From IMG/VR virus record IMGVR_UViG_3300046003_003165, positions 1 to 25,804 of that record: 25,804 bases of DNA; one strand, written 5' to 3'. The DNA comes from a virus. Below the pieces are notes generated by a model that worked only from the letters and a program-made list of their open reading frames with translations, did not search any database and had not been told where the DNA came from. Positions 4,368 through 24,500 of this stretch are shown in pieces. The translations under genes and the position numbers were made by a program. Within the stretch, counting starts at the first letter, position 1. The number at the start of each line of letters is the position of its first letter.

Positions 4368-4915
4368 GGATCCTGATCGCTTGCGAATATAGCGGGGCCG
4401 TCCGCGACGCTTTCCGCGCCCGAGGCCATGACGCCATGTCCTGCGACCTGTTGGCGACCGAGGTAGACGGGCCGCACTATCAGGGCGACGTGTTCGACGT
4501 GCTTGGTGACGGGTGGGACTTGATGGTCGCGCACCCGCCTTGCACGGACCTTGCCGTGTCCGGCGCGCGTCACTTCCCCGCCAAGATCGCGGACGGTCGG
4601 CAAAGCGCGGCGCTGGACTTTGTGCGCCGGCTGCTTGACGCGCCGATTGAGCGCATCGCCTTGGAGAACCCGATCTCGGTCATCTCCAGCAAGATCCGAA
4701 AGCCGGACCAGATCATCCAGCCTTGGATGTTCGGTCATGGCGAGGTCAAGGCGACCTGTCTGTGGCTCAAGAACCTGCCGCTGCTGACGCCGACCAACAT
4801 TGTCGACGGACGCGAGGCGCGTGTGCACCGTATGCCGCCGGGGCCGAACCGCTGGAAGGAGCGCAGCCGCACCCTGCCGGGTGTCGCTGCGGCCATAGCG
4901 GACCAGTGGTCATGA
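4364..4915 (+). CDS. Short C5-cytosine DNA methyltransferase-like protein
   Basis: 183-residue protein with the skeleton of a cytosine-C5 methyltransferase. An N-terminal strand and turn ACEYSGAVRDAF lies where the cofactor-binding motif I sits. HPPCTDLAVSG contains the possible catalytic C60 (motif IV, usually PCQ), and LENP at 100-103 carries the motif VI glutamate. The C-terminus (RSRTLPGVAAAIADQW) resembles the closing motif of these enzymes. It is much shorter than typical enzymes (300 or more residues), and I see no target-recognition domain or QRR-type motif VIII. Similar short proteins in phages are often annotated as DNA cytosine methyltransferases, with activity unproven. ATG 4364 overlaps the gcrA-like stop (ATGA), and its own stop overlaps the helicase start in the same way. 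A TTG three codons upstream is a less likely start. Confidence 0.78.
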   Translation: MRILIACEYSGAVRDAFRARGHDAMSCDLLATEVDGPHYQGDVFDVLGDGWDLMVAHPPCTDLAVSGARHFPAKIADGRQSAALDFVRRLLDAPIERIALENPISVISSKIRKPDQIIQPWMFGHGEVKATCLWLKNLPLLTPTNIVDGREARVHRMPPGPNRWKERSRTLPGVAAAIADQWS

Positions 4916-6198
4916 AGCTCCGCCCATACCAGGAGCAGGCTGCCGACTTCCTGTTCGCCACCGACCGGGCGATGATCCTCGCCGCAGTTGGTGCCGGCAA
5001 GACCGCGATCACCCTGTCCGCCATGCAGGACATGGTGCGTCAGGGCATCGCTCGGCGCTGGCTGGTGCTCGCCCCCAAGCGGGTTGCGACCGACGTCTGG
5101 CCTGTCGAGGCCCCGAAGTGGGCACCGGGCCTGACGCTGGCCGTGGCTGTCGGCACGCCAGCGCAGCGGGCGGCGGCGTTCGCCAGCAAGGCCGACGTGG
5201 TGGTAGCAAACTATGATACCATCCAGACCCTGCCGTCGCTCGACGGCTTCGACGGGGTGGTGTTCGACGAACTGACGCGGCTCAAGAACCCGTCGGGCGC
5301 ACGCTTCAAGGATCTGTTCAAGAAGCTGGACGGCATGAAGTTCCGCTGGGGCCTGACCGGCTCGTTCACCTCGAACGGGCTGGAGGACGTGTTCGGTCAG
5401 TGCAAGGTGATCGACGTCGACCTGCTCGGGCGCTCCAAGGGGGCGTTCCTACAGACCTGGTTCATCCCGATCAGCCGGGAGTTCGGCCAATGGGTCGCAC
5501 GGCCTAGCGCCTTGGCGGGCATCATGGCCAAGATCAAGCCCGCCACGTTCGTGCTGGACGCGGGCGAGTATTCCGACAAGCTGCCGCCGCTCAACGTGGT
5601 CGAGGTCAAGTCGACCATGGACATGAAGGCATATGACAAGATGAAGCGGGACTACGTCGCGCAGGTCGGCACCGAGACGGTGACGGCCCTGACCGCAGCG
5701 GCCATGACCAGCAAGCTCCAGCAGCTCGCCGGCGGGTGGGCCTACAGCCCCTCGCCTGTCTGGTTCTCGTCGCATCGGTTCGACCGGCTGGAGGAGTTGC
5801 TGGCCGAGAACCAGCGGGCCAACACCTTAGTGGTGTATAACTACCGCGAGGAGCTGGCCGAGTTGAAGCGGCGCTACCCGCAGGCGCAGACGCTGGACGA
5901 CGCGGATGCTCTCGCCAGATGGAACGCAGGCAAGATTGAGATGCTGCTGGTTCATCCAAAGTCAGCGGGCCACGGCCTGAACCTCCAGCACGGCGGGTCG
6001 CATATCGTGTTCGTGTCGCTGCCGTGGTCGCTGGAGCTGTTCGAGCAGACGGTCGGGCGGCTGCACCGCAGCGGACAGAAACACCCGGTCTATTGCTACG
6101 TCATGATGACCGAGAAGACGATTGACGAACGTATCTGGCAGTCGCTGCACGACAAGCGGTCGCTGTCCCAACTGGCTACAGAGGAGTTGGCCGCATGA
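4912..6198 (+). CDS. SNF2-type DEAD/DEAH superfamily 2 helicase
   Basis: 428-residue ATP-dependent DNA translocase. Domain 1 has a Walker A GAGKT at 27-31, the LVLAPKR strand (motif Ia), a Walker B FDELTRLKNP at 118-127 with D119 and E120, and LTGSFTSNG (motif III) near 148-156. Domain 2 has SAGHGLNLQ at 351-359 (motif V) and QTVGRLHRSGQ at 379-389 (motif VI with arginine fingers). DELT in place of DEAH is common in phage SNF2-like proteins. This helicase occurs beside VRR-NUC, DUF2800 and family A polymerase genes in many phages, which supports a role in replication or recombination. ATG 4912 overlaps the preceding stop (ATGA). A longer in-frame reading from 4723 would run through the methyltransferase-like gene and is rejected. 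Confidence 0.93.
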   Translation: MKLRPYQEQAADFLFATDRAMILAAVGAGKTAITLSAMQDMVRQGIARRWLVLAPKRVATDVWPVEAPKWAPGLTLAVAVGTPAQRAAAFASKADVVVANYDTIQTLPSLDGFDGVVFDELTRLKNPSGARFKDLFKKLDGMKFRWGLTGSFTSNGLEDVFGQCKVIDVDLLGRSKGAFLQTWFIPISREFGQWVARPSALAGIMAKIKPATFVLDAGEYSDKLPPLNVVEVKSTMDMKAYDKMKRDYVAQVGTETVTALTAAAMTSKLQQLAGGWAYSPSPVWFSSHRFDRLEELLAENQRANTLVVYNYREELAELKRRYPQAQTLDDADALARWNAGKIEMLLVHPKSAGHGLNLQHGGSHIVFVSLPWSLELFEQTVGRLHRSGQKHPVYCYVMMTEKTIDERIWQSLHDKRSLSQLATEELAA

Positions 6199-11938: not shown

Positions 11939-12553
11939 CTAGATTGTGAAGACGAAGCGGACCCGCCCCGCCAGGCCGTTGTCGCCACGGTCGCCGCCGA
12001 CCGCCGGCGTCCCGCCGTTGCCGCCCGCGCCGCCTTGCAGCCCGTCGACGCCCGCCGTGGCCGCAGCCCCGGCCTGCGTGAAGAAGTTGCCGCCGATGCC
12101 CGTCGTGTTGGTGTCGGAGCCGCCCGAGGCCGTGCCGCCCTGACCTTGCGTGGTGTTGCCGTCGGACGTGCCGCCCGCGCCGCCCGTGGCGATCATCGGC
12201 GTGATCGTATACGTCCCGCTCGACACCGTCGAGGTGCCGCCCGTGTTGCCGGGGTCGGGGGTGTTGGACCCGGTGCCGCCCACGCCGACGGCGTAGAGGA
12301 TGGTCTTGGCCGCGTCAGCGCCGCTCAGAGCCAGCGTGGTCTTGCTGTAGCCACCCGCGCCGCCGCCGCCGCCCTCGTTGGACCCCTCAATACCGAACCC
12401 GCCGCCGCCGCCGCCGCCCCACACCTCAATGACCGCGCTGATCGGCGCAGCCGGGATCGTGACGGAGCCGGATCCTGTCGAGAAGTCGAACGTGACCAGC
12501 GTAGGGGCGGTCTGGACGCTCAGGCCCGCCATGACGGCGACGACGCCGGTCAT
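11939..12553 (-). CDS. Glycine-rich phage adhesin/tail protein
   Basis: 204 residues. After a beta-rich start it contains glycine runs (EVWGGGGGGGFGIEGSNEGG near 48-67) and then long stretches of GG-T/N/S repeats up to residue about 195, closing with GLAGRVRFVFTI. Glycine-rich domains with this look form polyglycine II bundles at the tips of some phage fibres, where they bind receptors. This protein may do the same. ATG 12553 is chosen (TGATG overlap with the upstream fibre gene). A reading to 12583 would add ten residues without support. The opening VTFDFSTGSGSVTIPA and terminal RVRFVFTI resemble the start and end of known glycine-rich phage proteins. Confidence 0.8.
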   Translation of the reverse strand: MTGVVAVMAGLSVQTAPTLVTFDFSTGSGSVTIPAAPISAVIEVWGGGGGGGFGIEGSNEGGGGGAGGYSKTTLALSGADAAKTILYAVGVGGTGSNTPDPGNTGGTSTVSSGTYTITPMIATGGAGGTSDGNTTQGQGGTASGGSDTNTTGIGGNFFTQAGAAATAGVDGLQGGAGGNGGTPAVGGDRGDNGLAGRVRFVFTI

Positions 12554-13347
12554 CAGGTGACCCCCAGCCCGGCGATGATCCACGAGGTCGCGCCGACCTT
12601 GACCAGCGTGGCCATGGCGTTGCGAGCCAGCGTGCGGGTGCCGGTGGTCGTGGTGTTGACCAGCGTCATCGTGTCGGTCGTGATGGCCACCGACAGCGAC
12701 GTGGCGTTGACGTTGATGACGACGATAGCCGTGCCGATCGGGAACGCCACCGCTGCGTTGGCCGGGACGGTCAGCGTCAGCGACGAGCCGTTCATGACCA
12801 CGGACTTGCCCCGGTCGGCCAGCACCAGTTGGTGATTGGCGGTCTTGAGGCTCTGCGGCACGTCGAGATAGCCCGCCGTGTGCGACGCGGCAGCCGCATC
12901 CTGGATCGTCGTCGTGCCGGTCAGCGCGGCGTTGTTGATCGGCGCGTAGGTCGCCGCCGCAGCCGCAGTCGACAGGCCGTCGGTGATGCCGTAGCCCGCC
13001 AGCGTTGTCGGCTCACCTGTGATCTCCGACCACGGCACACCCGTCGCGCTGACGTCGTTGATGCCGTAGATGTCGTCGTAGGTGCCGATGAGCGCGTCCG
13101 CGCTGTCGCGCAGCACGAACTTGTAGGCGACCTCGCCGGTCAGCCAGACCTCGCTCTCCAGCCGCCCGGCGGCGTCCATGATGATCGGGTTGGCGTGCGG
13201 CGTGACGCCGGTCGACGACGTGTAGGTCGTCTGCGGCGTCGTGGTGCCTGCCGCGTAGGTGTAAAGCCGCCCGCCGGTCAGCGGGTTGCCGGAGTTGTCA
13301 AGGAACTGCTGGCCAGCGCCGGCGAGAGGCGAGAGGAAAACGGTCAT
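12553..13347 (-). CDS. Tail fibre protein (264 aa)
   Basis: 264 residues. The N-terminal 80 residues, with FLDNSGNPLTGGRLYTYAAG and a later PIIMDAAGR, match a motif common at the start of phage fibre proteins, probably the part that docks on the virion. A collagen-like or helical stalk follows (STAAAAATYAPINNAALTG, near 125-143). A Thr/Val/Ala-rich C-terminal beta domain (about 160-264) ends in SWIIAGLGVT. This is typical of a trimeric fibre. It overlaps its neighbours as ATGA upstream and TGATG downstream. The sequence does not show its receptor. Confidence 0.85.
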   Translation of the reverse strand: MTVFLSPLAGAGQQFLDNSGNPLTGGRLYTYAAGTTTPQTTYTSSTGVTPHANPIIMDAAGRLESEVWLTGEVAYKFVLRDSADALIGTYDDIYGINDVSATGVPWSEITGEPTTLAGYGITDGLSTAAAAATYAPINNAALTGTTTIQDAAAASHTAGYLDVPQSLKTANHQLVLADRGKSVVMNGSSLTLTVPANAAVAFPIGTAIVVINVNATSLSVAITTDTMTLVNTTTTGTRTLARNAMATLVKVGATSWIIAGLGVT

Positions 13348-14039
13348 TGGTCAACCTGTGTGATGCTCAACAGCGCCGAAGGGCTTGCAGGGGCGAACGC
13401 AGTCGCAGCGTGGGCGTTCAGTATAACATTGGTGTCGTCAGCGGCCCACATCAGCTCTACATAATCGTTATGCGTCAGCGACAGCGTCGCCAGCAGCGGG
13501 ACCAGCACCTCGTCGTCGTTGCCTTTCAGCCGCCACCGGCTTGTGGAGTTGGCCACGTCGACACCGTTCTTGCGCAGCCACAGATACGCCAGGGTCGAGC
13601 CGCCGGTCGTCTTGTCCAGCGAAATCGTGGCAGAGATCACGAACGCCCCTGCGCGGGTGACGCCGATGCGCGAGCTGGTGTTGAGGCTGACGCCGGCGGC
13701 GTAGTTGGTGGTGTTGAACGTGACGGCGTTCGCCGTGCTTGCGCCCGACAGTGTCTGCGTGGCTGTGTTGGCGAACCCGCCCGCGTAGCCCTGCGGCGGC
13801 ACCAGAGGCGGCGCGGACAGTAGCCCCTGCACGTCGGCGCGCAGCAGGTCCATCGCCGCCTCGGCCTCGGCCCCGCTGAACGGCGCAAGCGACAGGTCGC
13901 TGATGGAGATGTCGGTGGTGCCGCTGCCGGTCTGGCCGAACTGGTTGAACAGGAACCGATACCACTCGCGCGACATAATGTTGGTGCCCGGCTCCAGCAC
14001 CGGGACGCGCGCGGCGGGGATCGAGGTGATGTCAGCCAT
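13344..14039 (-). CDS. C1q/TNF-knob virion protein, candidate tail needle
   Basis: 231 residues. The N-terminus carries MSREWYRFLFNQFGQTG, a segment shared by many phage fibre proteins. A short helical part follows (SGAEAEAAMDLLRADVQGLL, near 54-73). The C-terminal 130 residues have a C1q/TNF-like jelly-roll pattern: RIGVTRAGAFVISATISLDK, then LWLRKNGVDVANS, then NDYVELMWAADDTNVILNA. It lies directly after the gp10-like gene, the place of the tail needle (gp26) in P22, and is close to gp26 in length. The tail needle of the related phage Sf6 ends in a TNF-like knob. I therefore infer a needle or penetration protein. The long coiled coil of P22 gp26 is not evident. The start overlaps the gp10-like stop by eight bases. 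Confidence 0.78.
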   Translation of the reverse strand: MADITSIPAARVPVLEPGTNIMSREWYRFLFNQFGQTGSGTTDISISDLSLAPFSGAEAEAAMDLLRADVQGLLSAPPLVPPQGYAGGFANTATQTLSGASTANAVTFNTTNYAAGVSLNTSSRIGVTRAGAFVISATISLDKTTGGSTLAYLWLRKNGVDVANSTSRWRLKGNDDEVLVPLLATLSLTHNDYVELMWAADDTNVILNAHAATAFAPASPSALLSITQVDQ

Positions 14040-15549
14040 TGGTGCCGCTCACCGTCAGTTCCGCCCCCATGATGGCCACCTTGACAGGGGCGGTGCCTGA
14101 CACCTCGTAGACCCGGTCGCGCAACTTGTTGGTCATGCCCAGCCTACGCCAGATGACGCGCGTCTGCGACGCACCGAGCAGGCCCATCGACCGCCAGTGC
14201 TCTTTCGACCAGGTGTGCCCGCCGTCGTCGGACCAGCGCAGCATAACCTGCGGGTCAGAGCCTTCAAGGACCGGCTGGCCGAGCAGCAGCGGCACGTCGG
14301 TCGACACCAGCAGTTCCACGCCCGTCTCGACCAGCAGCGGCTCGTCGTAGGCGTAACCCTCCAAGCCGACGCCGGTCTCGCAGACGAGCTGGAGCGCGTG
14401 CTGCGCGGTGCGCTTGAAGTCGTTCTGGCCGGTCGGTAGCGCCCGCCACCGACGCAGCCACTTCTGGACCAAGCCGTTGTCGGCGAACGTGTCGAGGTCC
14501 AGTTCGTAGATGTTGCCGTTCTCGAAGTCGCCGACGATCAACGCGCCGAGGAAGTTGACGAAGCAGTTGGACCGATGGCGCGTGAACACGCCGTTCTTGA
14601 GGCCGCGCCGCTCGTGCCACGCCCGCGTCGCGGCGTCGAACACCCACGTCGTGTCGGCCAGCGGGAAGTTGAGGACGTAGAACTCGTGGCCGTCCTGTTG
14701 GTAGGAATAGGCCACCGCGTCCGTCATGTCGGCGTAGCTCTGAATGGCGTATTCGACGGCGTGCGTGGAGATGCGCTCGGCCTGATAGCCGTTGGCGCGG
14801 TAGACGATGCCGCGTCCTCTGGCGTCCTGACCCAGCCAGGTGATGCTGTTGTCCAGCTTGGCGATCGAGTTAGGCGCGACGCAGCCGACCTCGTTGTAGG
14901 CCCCTTGGATGCGGGCCAGCGGGAAGTCGGCGTCGCCGGAGTTATACCAGACCTCGGTCGAGTTGGTGCCGAACACCCACACCTCGCGGTGGTTGGCGAC
15001 CAGACCGACGACGTTGTCCGGCGCACCCTCGGCGCTGGCAAAGTCCAGCGGATCCACACTGTTGCCGTCAAACAGGGTGGTGACCCAGATGCGTTGCGAG
15101 TTGGGTTCCGAGAAAACGAAATAGCCGTCGAGGTAGGCGACCGTGCTGGCCCCGGCGAAGTCCTCGTCAGTGATCTCGGCCAGCACGCCGGTGTCGAAGT
15201 TGTAGATGTAGCCCTTGGGGTCGGCGGCGATGAACAACTGCGTGCCGTTGTCGGCCATCGACACCGGGCCGCTGTTCTCGACTGTGCCGATCAGCGTCGC
15301 GACGCCGGCGGGCGTGACCGAGTAGAACGATTGGCCCGACACAACGTAGCCGGTGCTGCCGTTCGACCACAGACCCTGGATAGGTCCGGTGCCGATGGTG
15401 GAGATGAAACGCAGCCCCGGCGCGCGTTGCAGATATGCCGCCTCCAGCCCGCCCTCGGCCATGACCTCTGGGTAGAGGTTGACCATGCGGTTGTCGGCAG
15501 CGTTGACGCTGCGGACCACATAGCTGGATCCTAGAATGGGGCTCTTCAC
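14032..15549 (-). CDS. P22 gp10-like packaged-DNA stabilisation protein
   Basis: 505 residues, close to the length of P22 gp10, a tail hub protein that plugs the portal after packaging and carries the needle and spikes. The N-terminus has YVVRSVNAADNRMVNLYPE (about residues 10-28), the typical opening of this family. The body is made of beta-propeller-like repeats with G-Y-V-V, Y-F-V-F and W-V-F-G strands and several asparagine/aspartate turns. The start is GTG 15549, one base after the preceding stop, without a clear ribosome binding site, so translation is probably coupled. It lies between the gp4-like adaptor and the candidate needle, the same order as in P22. Confidence 0.92.
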   Translation of the reverse strand: MKSPILGSSYVVRSVNAADNRMVNLYPEVMAEGGLEAAYLQRAPGLRFISTIGTGPIQGLWSNGSTGYVVSGQSFYSVTPAGVATLIGTVENSGPVSMADNGTQLFIAADPKGYIYNFDTGVLAEITDEDFAGASTVAYLDGYFVFSEPNSQRIWVTTLFDGNSVDPLDFASAEGAPDNVVGLVANHREVWVFGTNSTEVWYNSGDADFPLARIQGAYNEVGCVAPNSIAKLDNSITWLGQDARGRGIVYRANGYQAERISTHAVEYAIQSYADMTDAVAYSYQQDGHEFYVLNFPLADTTWVFDAATRAWHERRGLKNGVFTRHRSNCFVNFLGALIVGDFENGNIYELDLDTFADNGLVQKWLRRWRALPTGQNDFKRTAQHALQLVCETGVGLEGYAYDEPLLVETGVELLVSTDVPLLLGQPVLEGSDPQVMLRWSDDGGHTWSKEHWRSMGLLGASQTRVIWRRLGMTNKLRDRVYEVSGTAPVKVAIMGAELTVSGTNG

Positions 15550-15550
15550 G

Positions 15551-16261
15551 TCAGTTCGGCTGGTTGGTGTAGATGTTGTAGCGCCCTGGCGATCCCATGA
15601 TGCCCGACGGCATGGCCATCATGTCGCCCGGATTGTTGATCCGCTTGAGGTTACGCTTGGACACCATGGCGACGCGCGTCACCTGCGGCGACGGCTCGAC
15701 GCCGAACTCCGGGGCCAGCTCGCAGGCTAGATTGTAGCGGAAGGCGCGCAGGTAGCCGGGCGGAAAGACCAGTTCCGTGCCGAGCGTCGCGGGCTGCGCC
15801 AGCTCCAGCACCGAGATGAAGTGCCACACCATCGCCTGCGTCGGCACCGGGTAGATCGTGTATGTGGCGTTCGGGTTCGTCGCCTCGGCGTAGATGACCT
15901 GCGGATAGGTGCTCGTCACCGTCTTGAGGACGATGGCGTTGTATTCCGCCTCGTTGATGATGGCGGGCATGAACGACAGGCCCTGCGGGTCGACGTAGTA
16001 GGTTGCGTCGTTGAGCAGCACGGGACGCAGGCCGACGAAGTCGCCGGTCGGCCCAAGCGTGCGGGTCGCCTGCCCTGCGGGCCATGTAAAGGTCTGGTCT
16101 TGGGTGGCGTAGACAGCGAGCCTCTCGGTGCTCCAGCTATCAATCATCATGTTCATCGCGGCCAGCGCGTCCTGCGCCGTGTCCGCCGACGGAACCTCGC
16201 CCTCGGCCAGTTGACCGATCAGCCGGAGCGCGCCGTAGATGATGTCTCCTGCGGTCGTCAT
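15551..16261 (-). CDS. P22 gp4-like tail accessory/head-completion protein
   Basis: 236 residues. Its start, TTAGDIIYGALRLIGQLAEG, and the following AMNMMIDSWSTERL (about residues 35-48) are characteristic of the P22 gp4-like family, which binds under the portal ring to build the neck. A beta-rich centre has WPAGQATRTLGPTGDF, and the C-terminus KRNLKRINNPGDMM is typical of the same family. An AGGAC-type ribosome binding site lies upstream of ATG 16261, past a strong hairpin. The gene is followed one base later by the gp10-like gene. P22 gp4 has been reported to have muramidase activity; nothing here shows that. Confidence 0.9.
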   Translation of the reverse strand: MTTAGDIIYGALRLIGQLAEGEVPSADTAQDALAAMNMMIDSWSTERLAVYATQDQTFTWPAGQATRTLGPTGDFVGLRPVLLNDATYYVDPQGLSFMPAIINEAEYNAIVLKTVTSTYPQVIYAEATNPNATYTIYPVPTQAMVWHFISVLELAQPATLGTELVFPPGYLRAFRYNLACELAPEFGVEPSPQVTRVAMVSKRNLKRINNPGDMMAMPSGIMGSPGRYNIYTNQPN

Positions 16262-19094: not shown

Positions 19095-19305
19095 CTTGCT
19101 TCTCCACTTGTTCCTGGCGGATGGTGGCGGTCTCGGTCACGACGGCGTCCAGTGCCTTGCCGGTCGCTGCGGCAACGGTAGCCTGCGCGCGCATCTCCTT
19201 GACGCGGGCGCGGTCGGCACACCACGACAGGGTCAGCACGGCGAACATCAGCGCGATGAGCAGCGCACCGACGTAGACGATGCGGCGGATTTCCTGCGGG
19301 ATCAT
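18988..19305 (-). CDS. Rz-like inner-membrane spanin
   Basis: 105 residues. One N-terminal membrane helix (about residues 9-28, VYVGALLIALMFAVLTLSW) is followed by a periplasmic coiled-coil region rich in A, E, Q and K (33-75). A basic C-terminal part contains LRLPDNFGRDLERVRRQRGE. Size and topology fit an inner-membrane spanin. ATG 19305 is used because it overlaps the endolysin stop (ATGA) and places the membrane helix at the N-terminus. Upstream codons in the same frame read through the endolysin gene and are ignored. The Rz1-like gene starts within its last third. Confidence 0.87.
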   Translation of the reverse strand: MIPQEIRRIVYVGALLIALMFAVLTLSWCADRARVKEMRAQATVAAATGKALDAVVTETATIRQEQVEKQDEVKKLNGAGLRLPDNFGRDLERVRRQRGESDDPR

Positions 19306-19859
19306 GTCGCGGCTCCGTATAGCGCGGCCTCGGCGGCGCGGCGGCGGGCAAGGCCCTTCATGACCTTGCCGTCGTTCTTGTCCCAGCGCGCGAACTGAGC
19401 CTTCGCGCCTGCGTAGTCGCCCGCCTTGTGCAGCCGCAGCAGCGTGCTGTCGTTGAGCGCCGACAGGCCGACATTGTAGGCGAACGACACGAGCGCGTCG
19501 AACTGGCTCTGCGTCGTCACAGGGGCCAGCAGGGCTACGCCCTTCTCGAACCGCCCGAGATCCGTGAGGAAGCGCGCGTCGGCCTGCGCTTGCGTCCAGA
19601 CGACGCCCTTGGCGATGCCCGGTCCCGTGCTGCCCCAGCCGATCGTCCACGGGTGCCCGTCGCGCGACCCAGGGTCGGGGTAAGCCGTCAGCTTGCAGCT
19701 CTCGAACGAGTGGATCAGGTCGACCCCCGCCTTGCTGACGCGCTTGCTCGGTGCCGGCGACGCGGGCGGCGCTAGGGCGGCGTTGATCGCGTCAACGTCC
19801 GCCTGCGTCAGCGGCGCACCCTTGATGATGCGCACCGCGTCGAACAGCGCCTTGCTCAT
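19302..19859 (-). CDS. GH24 endolysin (lysozyme/muramidase)
   Basis: 185 residues. The T4-lysozyme-type catalytic triad is visible: E53 in HSFESCKLTAYPDPG, D62, and T72 in WTIGWGSTG. The fold continues with QAQADARFLTDLGRFEKGV and FDALVSFAYNVGLSAL, and it closes with GLARRRAAEAALY. It cuts the glycan strands of peptidoglycan. The first 32 residues (ALFDAVRIIKGAPLTQADVD and on) precede the catalytic domain. This short helical segment recurs in other phage lysins, perhaps as a targeting or wall-binding piece. There is no signal peptide or SAR helix, so release should need a holin. It overlaps the Rz-like gene (ATGA). Confidence 0.95.
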   Translation of the reverse strand: MSKALFDAVRIIKGAPLTQADVDAINAALAPPASPAPSKRVSKAGVDLIHSFESCKLTAYPDPGSRDGHPWTIGWGSTGPGIAKGVVWTQAQADARFLTDLGRFEKGVALLAPVTTQSQFDALVSFAYNVGLSALNDSTLLRLHKAGDYAGAKAQFARWDKNDGKVMKGLARRRAAEAALYGAAT

Positions 19860-22568: not shown

Positions 22569-24500
22569 TTAAACCAACCAACGCCAAGTGAAGTCATAAA
22601 GCCGCTTCGTGCCGCTGCCGGTCCATGTGTTCTGGACCATATCTCGATACAGCGTAAAGACGCCCCCCGTTGACAGTTCAGCCTCACCCCATGCAGCGTT
22701 GCTGTTATCCATGACCTTTGCATACAGGCGGCGGGTGCCGGACGGGCGCATATAGGTCGGCAGCGGAACTGTCGTTCCGAGCGTAAATGCCGTTGAGTTT
22801 GACGTTCCACCAACGATTGCCGTGCTGCTCATAACAGCCCACGGCCCCTCGCGCCGAATGGTCACGACCATGGCCGTAACACTATCAATCCCCGCCACGC
22901 TAAGAATGAACGACGCCGGGTATTCGCCTAGCGCAATGCCGTCCTGCGAAACCGTCAGATCAATCGCCGGGTCAGACATAAACCGGGTAAAGGTTACGGA
23001 ACTTCCCGTCAGGCCCGTGCTGCTCGTAAAAGCCCGCGTTCCGACATAGGTATTCAGCGACGCATCAGATCGCAGCAGATTAACGTCAAGGCGCACCGAC
23101 ACCACGTCTGTGCCGGTCGCAGTCAGGCCGACATACCGAGGCGAAGTCGTGGACCCGCCAGTGCCGGGGCTTTGCACGTTGTCGATCACTGCGCGGTAGA
23201 AACCGCGCGAACCCGTGTTAATCTCAAGCCCTGCGGCGTAGGGATTGATAAGTTCAACATCCATCCCGCAAGCGTGGTCAGTAAACTGGATTTTTGCTGC
23301 GCCAGCCGTCCCGATTAGTGCGCCAAATCCTGTTGCTCGCCCGCTAATATAGCAGTTTTGGGCGCGTGTTGAGGCGCTGGCATCGGAAGCACCCGCGATC
23401 AGGAACGCCTCGCCGCGCCGCTCGTTTCCATCTGCATAGGTCGAAAACGCGACGGACGTATTTACCGCGTCAACGTCCCGCGCAAAGCACCGAACAGGGC
23501 CGAGCGCAGACGAGCGCGTTGTCAGCCAAACAGCCCGGCGACTGTCGCGGATGACCGGCCCGATGAAGCCGCAATCCACCCCGCCGTGCGTGTCGAACGG
23601 CTGCCAGGAGAAGCCCTTCGCAAAGCCGCCGAACCAGACGCAGCGTTCCGAGTTGGGGTAACGGACGTAATCCGTAGAGCCGTCATTGCCCGACCACGAC
23701 ACGGCGAAGCACTCAAGGGCACCGCCGCCGCCCAAGCCGGTCGCATCAAGGAAAATACCGCCGACGCCGTAGCAGTCGCGCGTCCCCTGCGTAATCATGA
23801 ACCCGTAACCAAAGTTCTTGGCGACAGGGTTGGTGATGACCATGCGCTCGACATAGAGCGGCTGGATGCAAAGATAGCCGAAGTCCTGAATATCCGGCTC
23901 AAGGATTTTGATGTCGGAGATAAACGTCGGAGCGACCCCTGCGCCGTTGACCGTGCCGGACAGGTAGATGCCAATGGACGTGGCGTTGTAGGTGCCGGAC
24001 GGCCCGCGCAGCTTGGGCTGGATGAGCGTGACGTTCGAGGCGGTGATCGACAGCAGCGTGATGTTCGCAGCCGTTGAGATCGTCGCGCCTTGGAAATTGA
24101 TGGTCGAGTTTGCCGGAATGGTCAGGCCGGTCGCGCAGCGATAGTTCCTGCCCGGTCGCAAGGTCAGAACAGCGTTAGCCGCCGCCGCCGCCGTGATTGC
24201 GTTTTGCATGGCCGTGGCGTCGTTTGTAGAGCCGTCGCCTACAGCGCCATATTGCTCCGGGTAAAGGACGCGGCGCACCGCAGTCTGCACGGTCTCAGCC
24301 ACCGCCCCCGTGCCGGATTGCAGAAGGCCAACCAGCGCCGATCCGCCGGGCGCCGAGTAGAACGCCTTGATGTAATCAGAAAACACCGACGCGGTCGCGC
24401 GCTTGAGCGGGCCAGGGGCGCGGTAAACCAGCAGCTCGTCGGTGCCGACGATCGGCGGCGTCTCCGGCGTCAGCTCAGGAACGGTTTTGCCTGCGGTCAT
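22569..24500 (-). CDS. Tailspike with pectate-lyase-type beta-helix
   Basis: 643 residues. The N-terminal 75 residues, with PIVGTDELLVYRAPGPLKRA, look like the virion-binding start of phage fibres. At 81-100, PEQYGAVGDGSTNDATAMQN is the classic entry into the pectate-lyase-3 right-handed beta-helix, which then runs for about 400 residues with N/G-turn repeats. The C-terminal 150 residues (after about 490) form a separate beta domain ending in WTGSGTKRLYDFTWRWLV, probably for trimerisation or receptor contact. It should bind and perhaps cleave a surface polysaccharide. Active-site residues cannot be named by eye. It lies directly after the portal, seven bases from its stop, and the ribosome binding site is weak. 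Confidence 0.88.
   Translation of the reverse strand: MTAGKTVPELTPETPPIVGTDELLVYRAPGPLKRATASVFSDYIKAFYSAPGGSALVGLLQSGTGAVAETVQTAVRRVLYPEQYGAVGDGSTNDATAMQNAITAAAAANAVLTLRPGRNYRCATGLTIPANSTINFQGATISTAANITLLSITASNVTLIQPKLRGPSGTYNATSIGIYLSGTVNGAGVAPTFISDIKILEPDIQDFGYLCIQPLYVERMVITNPVAKNFGYGFMITQGTRDCYGVGGIFLDATGLGGGGALECFAVSWSGNDGSTDYVRYPNSERCVWFGGFAKGFSWQPFDTHGGVDCGFIGPVIRDSRRAVWLTTRSSALGPVRCFARDVDAVNTSVAFSTYADGNERRGEAFLIAGASDASASTRAQNCYISGRATGFGALIGTAGAAKIQFTDHACGMDVELINPYAAGLEINTGSRGFYRAVIDNVQSPGTGGSTTSPRYVGLTATGTDVVSVRLDVNLLRSDASLNTYVGTRAFTSSTGLTGSSVTFTRFMSDPAIDLTVSQDGIALGEYPASFILSVAGIDSVTAMVVTIRREGPWAVMSSTAIVGGTSNSTAFTLGTTVPLPTYMRPSGTRRLYAKVMDNSNAAWGEAELSTGGVFTLYRDMVQNTWTGSGTKRLYDFTWRWLV

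Follow-up and report, generated by a model that had tools for sequence, protein, structure and literature searches.

In P22, the N-terminus of the tail needle (gp26) acts as the plug of the channel, in such a way that DNA falls out of the capsid when the needle is missing, according to the account in PMC3741392, which also describes virions with a foldon in place of the needle tip as functional, with a changed rate of DNA release. A C1q domain is reported in a tail protein of a Synechococcus jumbo phage, and its likeness to the knob fold of Sf6 has already been remarked there (PMC7824862). Here we analysed a window (the whole stretch of 25,804 nucleotides of the IMG/VR virus record IMGVR_UViG_3300046003_003165) in which a gene at the position of the needle gene encodes a protein predicted to end in a domain of this type.

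The Gene behind gp10 and Its Neighbours

The locus belongs to a structural block of the P22 type, in which the portal and coat genes are P22-like; downstream of the needle-position gene comes a fibre-like gene. The genes considered are:

13344..14039, minus strand: needle-position protein (putative plug module, short helix and C1q/TNF knob), 231 aa, ATG at 14039
14032..15549, minus strand: homologue of gp10 / head closure Hc3, the presumed hexameric nozzle entered by the plug
15551..16261, minus strand: homologue of gp4 / head-tail adaptor Ad3 (PHROG 637, 5.5e-9)
12553..13347, minus strand: fourth gene, a probable tail fibre and not the needle

As proposed in the initial annotation, the third gene lies directly behind the homologues of gp4 and gp10, as the needle genes do in P22 (4-10-26), Sf6 (7-8-9) and HK620, and its product has the size of gp26, with 231 aa vs. 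233 in P22, 233 in HK620 and 282 in Sf6. Its start overlaps the stop of gp10 and its stop overlaps the start of the next gene, and the third-position G+C in its coding frame is 86%. The gp10 homologue matched PHROG 578 ("head closure Hc3", E 1e-136) and Pfam Phage_stabilise (3e-9). Searches of Pfam and PHROG with the needle-position protein gave no useful family (PHROG 38624, of unknown function, E 0.005), and phmmer against the PDB gave zero matches. Many IMG/VR contigs conserve both the protein and its neighbours, supporting that the ORF is not a chance one. In the relatives, the fourth gene keeps around 100 conserved N-terminal aa and is very variable in C-terminus and length; it is possibly a tail-fibre adaptor.

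Other genes of the window were also noted. The 643-aa product of a minus-strand gene at 22569-24500, right behind the portal gene, weakly resembles pectate lyases (PF12708, E 1.5e-4, below the cut-off) and is a tailspike candidate with an unusual position. A phage lysozyme gene (PF00959, E 1e-38) is found at 19302-19859 (minus strand), within the head block between the portal and scaffold-like genes, and an SNF2-type helicase gene (PF00176, E 4e-13) at 4723-6198 on the plus strand, opposite to the structural genes.

Predicted Structure of the Protein

The protein was modelled with AlphaFold2 (30 sequences), yielding a mean pLDDT of 81, with values around 95 in the knob and a low confidence in the N-terminal part (block means of 43-67 over residues 1-60 and of 89-97 over residues 91-230). 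The following parts were distinguished:

13905..14039, minus strand: N-terminal putative plug module, residues 1-45 (extended stretch and SREWYRF motif), from a profile conserved behind gp10
13941..13970, minus strand: predicted plug helix, residues 24-33 (pLDDT about 65, moderate; in the relative L194 the helix is at 25-41)
13818..13874, minus strand: predicted 19-residue helix, residues 56-74, in place of a long shaft (AlphaFold2 model and heptad test)
13347..13796, minus strand: C1q/TNF-type jelly-roll knob, residues 82-231 (AlphaFold2 model and structure matches)

The jelly roll claimed for the C-terminus was recovered by structure prediction, as residues 82-231 match C1q/TNF domains with Z scores of 15-18 (Bacillus BxpB 17.9, Caprin-2 C1q 17.0, EDA-A1 16.9, and also Bacillus BclA). 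Domains of this kind form trimers. Phage chains among the matches were 9eul (central spike of phi812), 9k09 (portal-tail complex of cyanophage A4) and 8ke9 (short tail fibre of cyanophage A-1(L)), and among predicted viral structures the knob had 703 matches at E 0.001 or better. In Pfam, the window protein itself had no match to C1q, and its relative L147 had one below the cut-off (E 0.043). Since many further phage proteins also contain C1q domains, the knob is not diagnostic of a needle; it therefore marks the tip of a viral appendage, and the diagnosis of a needle comes from the position and the N-terminal module. As to the proposed likeness to the needle of Sf6, the knob is of the general C1q/TNF type, and a sequence relation to the Sf6 knob was not detected (PHROG 1030 was unmatched, and direct blastp gave only E 3.6). 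The Sf6 knob was not among the matches listed for the structure search, an absence that excludes nothing.

The lack of a long coiled coil was also borne out. The longest heptad stretch of the window protein, of 28 residues, lies inside the knob and is no better than those of shuffled sequences (23/40), whereas in the same test P22, Sf6 and HK620 showed stretches of 68-73 residues (0/40 shuffles). Stretches of 65-93 residues (0/40) were detected in the proteins in the same slot of Shewanella phage X14, Vibrio phages and Thalassomonas phage BA3, in a test that may understate coils, as it missed alanine-rich stretches (those of phiAX1 and L033 were not above shuffles). The 497-aa third-slot protein at L033:7704-9197 has such an alanine-rich stretch, followed by a C1q knob and then about 240 residues. 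In the model of L194, an IMG/VR member of the long-shaft group, the helix at 25-41 is followed by one of 90 residues (48-137, best modelled over 61-120), whereas in the window model helix 24-33 is followed only by 56-74. A PDB fold search with a long-shaft relative (mean pLDDT 68) found no useful match (best E 5.5). When 21 genes of the window were scanned for heptads, only two stretches exceeded all 20 shuffles, one of 40 residues at the C-terminus of the portal and one of 46 residues, rich in Thr/Val, in the fourth gene; judged by eye, neither resembles a needle shaft.

A Conserved N-Terminal Module behind gp10

The first 45 residues or so belong to a conserved, unannotated module of metagenomic phages (consensus IPAPRVPxIDxRTGLxSREWYRFFxNLF), shared by the relatives even where the remaining protein differs. 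A profile was built from 39 IMG/VR sequences and run against all ORFs of the first 184 loci (E<0.01), where 137 ORFs matched, those 39 included, and 136 of the 137 start directly behind gp10; the exception (L005) lies behind a broken gp10 frame. The window protein matches this profile directly behind gp10, and so belongs to the group. In a set of loci seeded with gp10, the module adjoins gp10 in 79 of 80, the remaining one ending at a contig edge, and the tips were C1q in 32, other in 42 and cut off in 5. When the search was seeded with 34 residues of the module, 78 of 80 were found behind gp10, with one at a contig edge and one rearranged (tips: C1q 29, other 48, cut 3). Each set holds the best 80 of a longer list, and contigs are shared between them and with the initial relatives, so the two sets are not independent of each other and describe a single broad clade. 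As an apparent contrast, the module followed gp10 and the tip did not in 81 representatives (Spearman 0.51 vs. 0.02); this was dropped as not robust, given values of 0.37 vs. 0.34 in 58 gp10-seeded representatives.

The module was also searched in 26 third-slot proteins, a choice and not a census (20 of 54 gp10 records were examined) which leaves out the next genes of L104 and L089, encoding other proteins, and those of L084 and L033, with another N-terminus. With the uniterated, IMG/VR-trained profile, 16 of the 26 scored above all 6951 decoy N-termini: those of Shewanella phage X14, Vibrio phages 1.184.A, 1.211.A, 41E34 and FGH, Thalassomonas phage BA3, Acetobacter phage phiAX1, Pseudomonas phage PAE2, Pseudanabaena phage Pam5 (48 aa), an Acidobacteriaceae contig and six nearer ones. 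The proteins of VvAW1, PBR31, H6/1, PfAn1, VSN-002, Pan3, Pam1, P22, Sf6 and HK620 were not recovered, that of VvAW1 appearing once the profile was widened by one round. In the reverse search, a profile of the coil group also recovered the relatives of the window protein.

Against the PDB, module profile A4 gave only unrelated matches (best E 0.011), so no solved chain shows the module, and profile A3 gave only weak, chance-like ones. In the open-licence literature searched, we found neither a C1q needle behind gp10 nor the N-terminal module described. A module that stays behind gp10 while the C-terminal parts change is new here, and it can serve in annotation as a marker of a gene to which the records examined give various names or none beyond hypothetical.

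Variable Tips and Apparent Exchange of the Knob

Across the relatives, the module is followed by a C1q knob, an S74 chaperone, collagen, something else or nothing. Peptidase_S74 tips were detected in L167 (E 3.5e-11) and L129, collagen repeats in L184 (E 1.4e-15) and a weak pectate-lyase-like tip in L170 (E 0.003). In L028 (185 aa) the knob begins directly after the module, and still shorter are the third-slot proteins of Rhodoferax phage P26218 (106 aa) and Pam5 (48 aa). Because clustering failed to separate the tips (single linkage gave one cluster, and a stricter rule still put 65 of 81 together), they were sorted by profile into C1q and other.

The loci searched contain 196 C1q ORFs, 125 of them with the module and 150 starting behind a detected gp10. 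A second N-terminus, LTRDQLASFLxDHEQIKQFEKLF, was found in the same slot (L220-L290, e.g. L220:2701-3468). The phages that carry it have gp10s only 24-28% identical to that of L028 (n=19), and C1q knobs 39-66% identical to its knob, with a median of 61% (n=22). For the proteins with the module, the knob median was 56% (n=124) and gp10 identity 47-100% (n=117). Loci L211-L290 were fetched by their likeness to L028, in such a way that the high knob identity is partly a matter of selection and the gp10 divergence is not. From these sequence identities, the knob appears to have passed between phages whose gp10s differ, each with an N-terminus of its own; this is what one would expect of an N-terminus that fits gp10 and a tip that can be exchanged.

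Putative Role of the Protein

The profile of gp10 matched in the PDB chain M of 9vyg ("stabilization protein", six chains) with E 1.2e-54, and also 7eeq ("needle head proteins") and entries of P22/Sf6-type proteins. In Pseudanabaena phage Pan3, the gene behind gp10 is identical to the "Needle protein" of 9vzi, and residues 1-69 of its product are chain S of 9vyg, present as three chains. The Pan3 needle is the nearest experimental anchor for the window protein, via gp10 and the slot. A hypothetical protein of Pam1 (ON014753, L100:7735-8466) matches this solved needle with E 2.4e-7; the Pam1 record names another gene, Pam1_12, as the needle.

The gene probably encodes a short tail needle made of a plug, a helix of around 19 residues and a knob, for which we infer plugging, trimerisation and position in the virion. 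Between the shortened needle and the different genome gate suggested in the initial annotation, the former is favoured because the gene occupies the same slot behind gp10, because coiled-coil proteins of Vibrio, Shewanella and Thalassomonas phages in that slot share the module, and because the homologous gp10 of Pan3 precedes a deposited three-copy "Needle protein" (9vyg, 9vzi). Three copies would assemble, with the N-terminal 45 residues or so (extended peptide and short helix) in the mouth of the gp10 hexamer, where they would hold the packaged DNA. The helix of around 19 residues (about 28 Å, at 1.5 Å per residue) would replace the coiled-coil shaft of 65-93 residues of the relatives, so the C1q/TNF knob would lie immediately outside the channel and act as a lid or contact sensor, not projecting far beyond the tailspikes. 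Once tailspikes and fibres hold the virion on the cell, the knob could be displaced and the plug pulled, allowing DNA and ejection proteins to leave.

Several results count against a short needle: the module gave no sequence signal with the needle N-termini of P22, Sf6 and HK620, the N-terminal part was modelled with low confidence, the long-shaft relative had no useful fold match in the PDB, the contrast between module and tip vanished in the gp10-seeded representatives, and the S74, collagen and beta-helix-like tips of the relatives are parts usual in tail fibres. The protein could instead be a tail fibre or receptor-binding protein, with the module docked outside the gp10/gp4 ring and the channel unplugged, as the fibre-type tips behind the module (S74 in L129 and L167, collagen in L184, the weak pectate-lyase-like one in L170), the abundance of C1q knobs in predicted viral proteins and the match to the A-1(L) short tail fibre would suggest. 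However, the window encodes, apart from this protein, a pectate-lyase-like tailspike candidate as well as the fibre-like product of the fourth gene; long coils of the gp26 type occur in relatives that share the module; the Pan3 counterpart was deposited as a needle; and no stretch in the scan of the 21 window genes looked, by eye, like a needle shaft. We consider a fibre unlikely.

The shaft is nearly absent and the relatives L028 (185 aa), P26218 (106 aa) and Pam5 (48 aa) are shorter yet, so it is doubtful that such proteins reach DNA deep in the channel. Closure by gp10 or an ejection protein, leaving the third-slot protein only as a lid or contact sensor beneath gp10, would account for this; nevertheless all short forms keep the module and not the tip, consistent with the module doing the work, and such a gate appears quite improbable. 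Finally, the ORF could be spurious or misplaced, or be a C1q cargo gene with no connection to the tail, a reading for which only the missing Pfam/PHROG annotation speaks. It has practically no probability: many contigs conserve the protein, the gene order and the overlapping starts, which already refutes it, and the third-position G+C also speaks against it.

Beyond the short needle in this window, a large P22-like group may have reduced the needle to a plug of around 45 residues that gates gp10 and works with almost any C-terminal attachment, be it a C1q lid, an S74 or collagen fibre, a beta-helix-like part, a coiled coil or nothing (Pam5), a generalisation that we hold as tentative and would not yet favour. 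If true, DNA retention would be separable from host sensing and piercing, and a projecting needle would be unnecessary for infection. Natural proteins that carry the plug module and are nearly shaftless (the window protein, L028) or tipless (Pam5) would make it testable whether the plug alone suffices.

Comparison with Known Needles

When the module was compared with the needle N-termini of P22, Sf6 and HK620, between 196 and 2753 of the 6951 decoys scored as well, a range spanning five module profiles (HK620 being unlisted in one), and the window protein did not match PHROG 1219 or 1030. P22 gp26 shares slot and size (233 vs. 231 aa) with the window protein, and differs from it in its long coiled coil, a different tip and an N-terminal homology that was not detected. 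As a gp26-homologous N-terminal domain and a long coil were looked for and not found, the protein is kept out of the gp26 family and regarded as a new, shortened and knob-tipped sub-type among needle-position proteins.

The needle of Sf6 and HS1 (Sf6 gp9; PMC3741392) resembles the window protein in its slot behind gp10, its length and its C-terminal TNF-type knob; however, the Sf6 needle has a heptad stretch of 73 residues and the window protein none, and a sequence relation of N-terminus or knob was not found. The tail needle of SU10 (gp18) resembles the proposed needle in being held in the nozzle channel, and differs in its length of 260 Å and its coiled coil with a beta-prism tip, as described in PMC9509320. 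The Pan3 N-terminus, tested against the five module profiles, was equalled by 968, 112, 116, 1 and 16 of the 6951 decoys; its needle has a tip for which no C1q profile match was noted, unlike the window protein, and resembles it in lying behind a homologous gp10 and in a heptad stretch (49 residues) shorter than that of P22. The third-slot proteins of X14 and the Vibrio phages, annotated as hypothetical or coil-containing, differ in having a coiled coil of 65-93 residues and no knob, with a helical C-terminus in the X14 type, but share with the window protein both the module and the slot.
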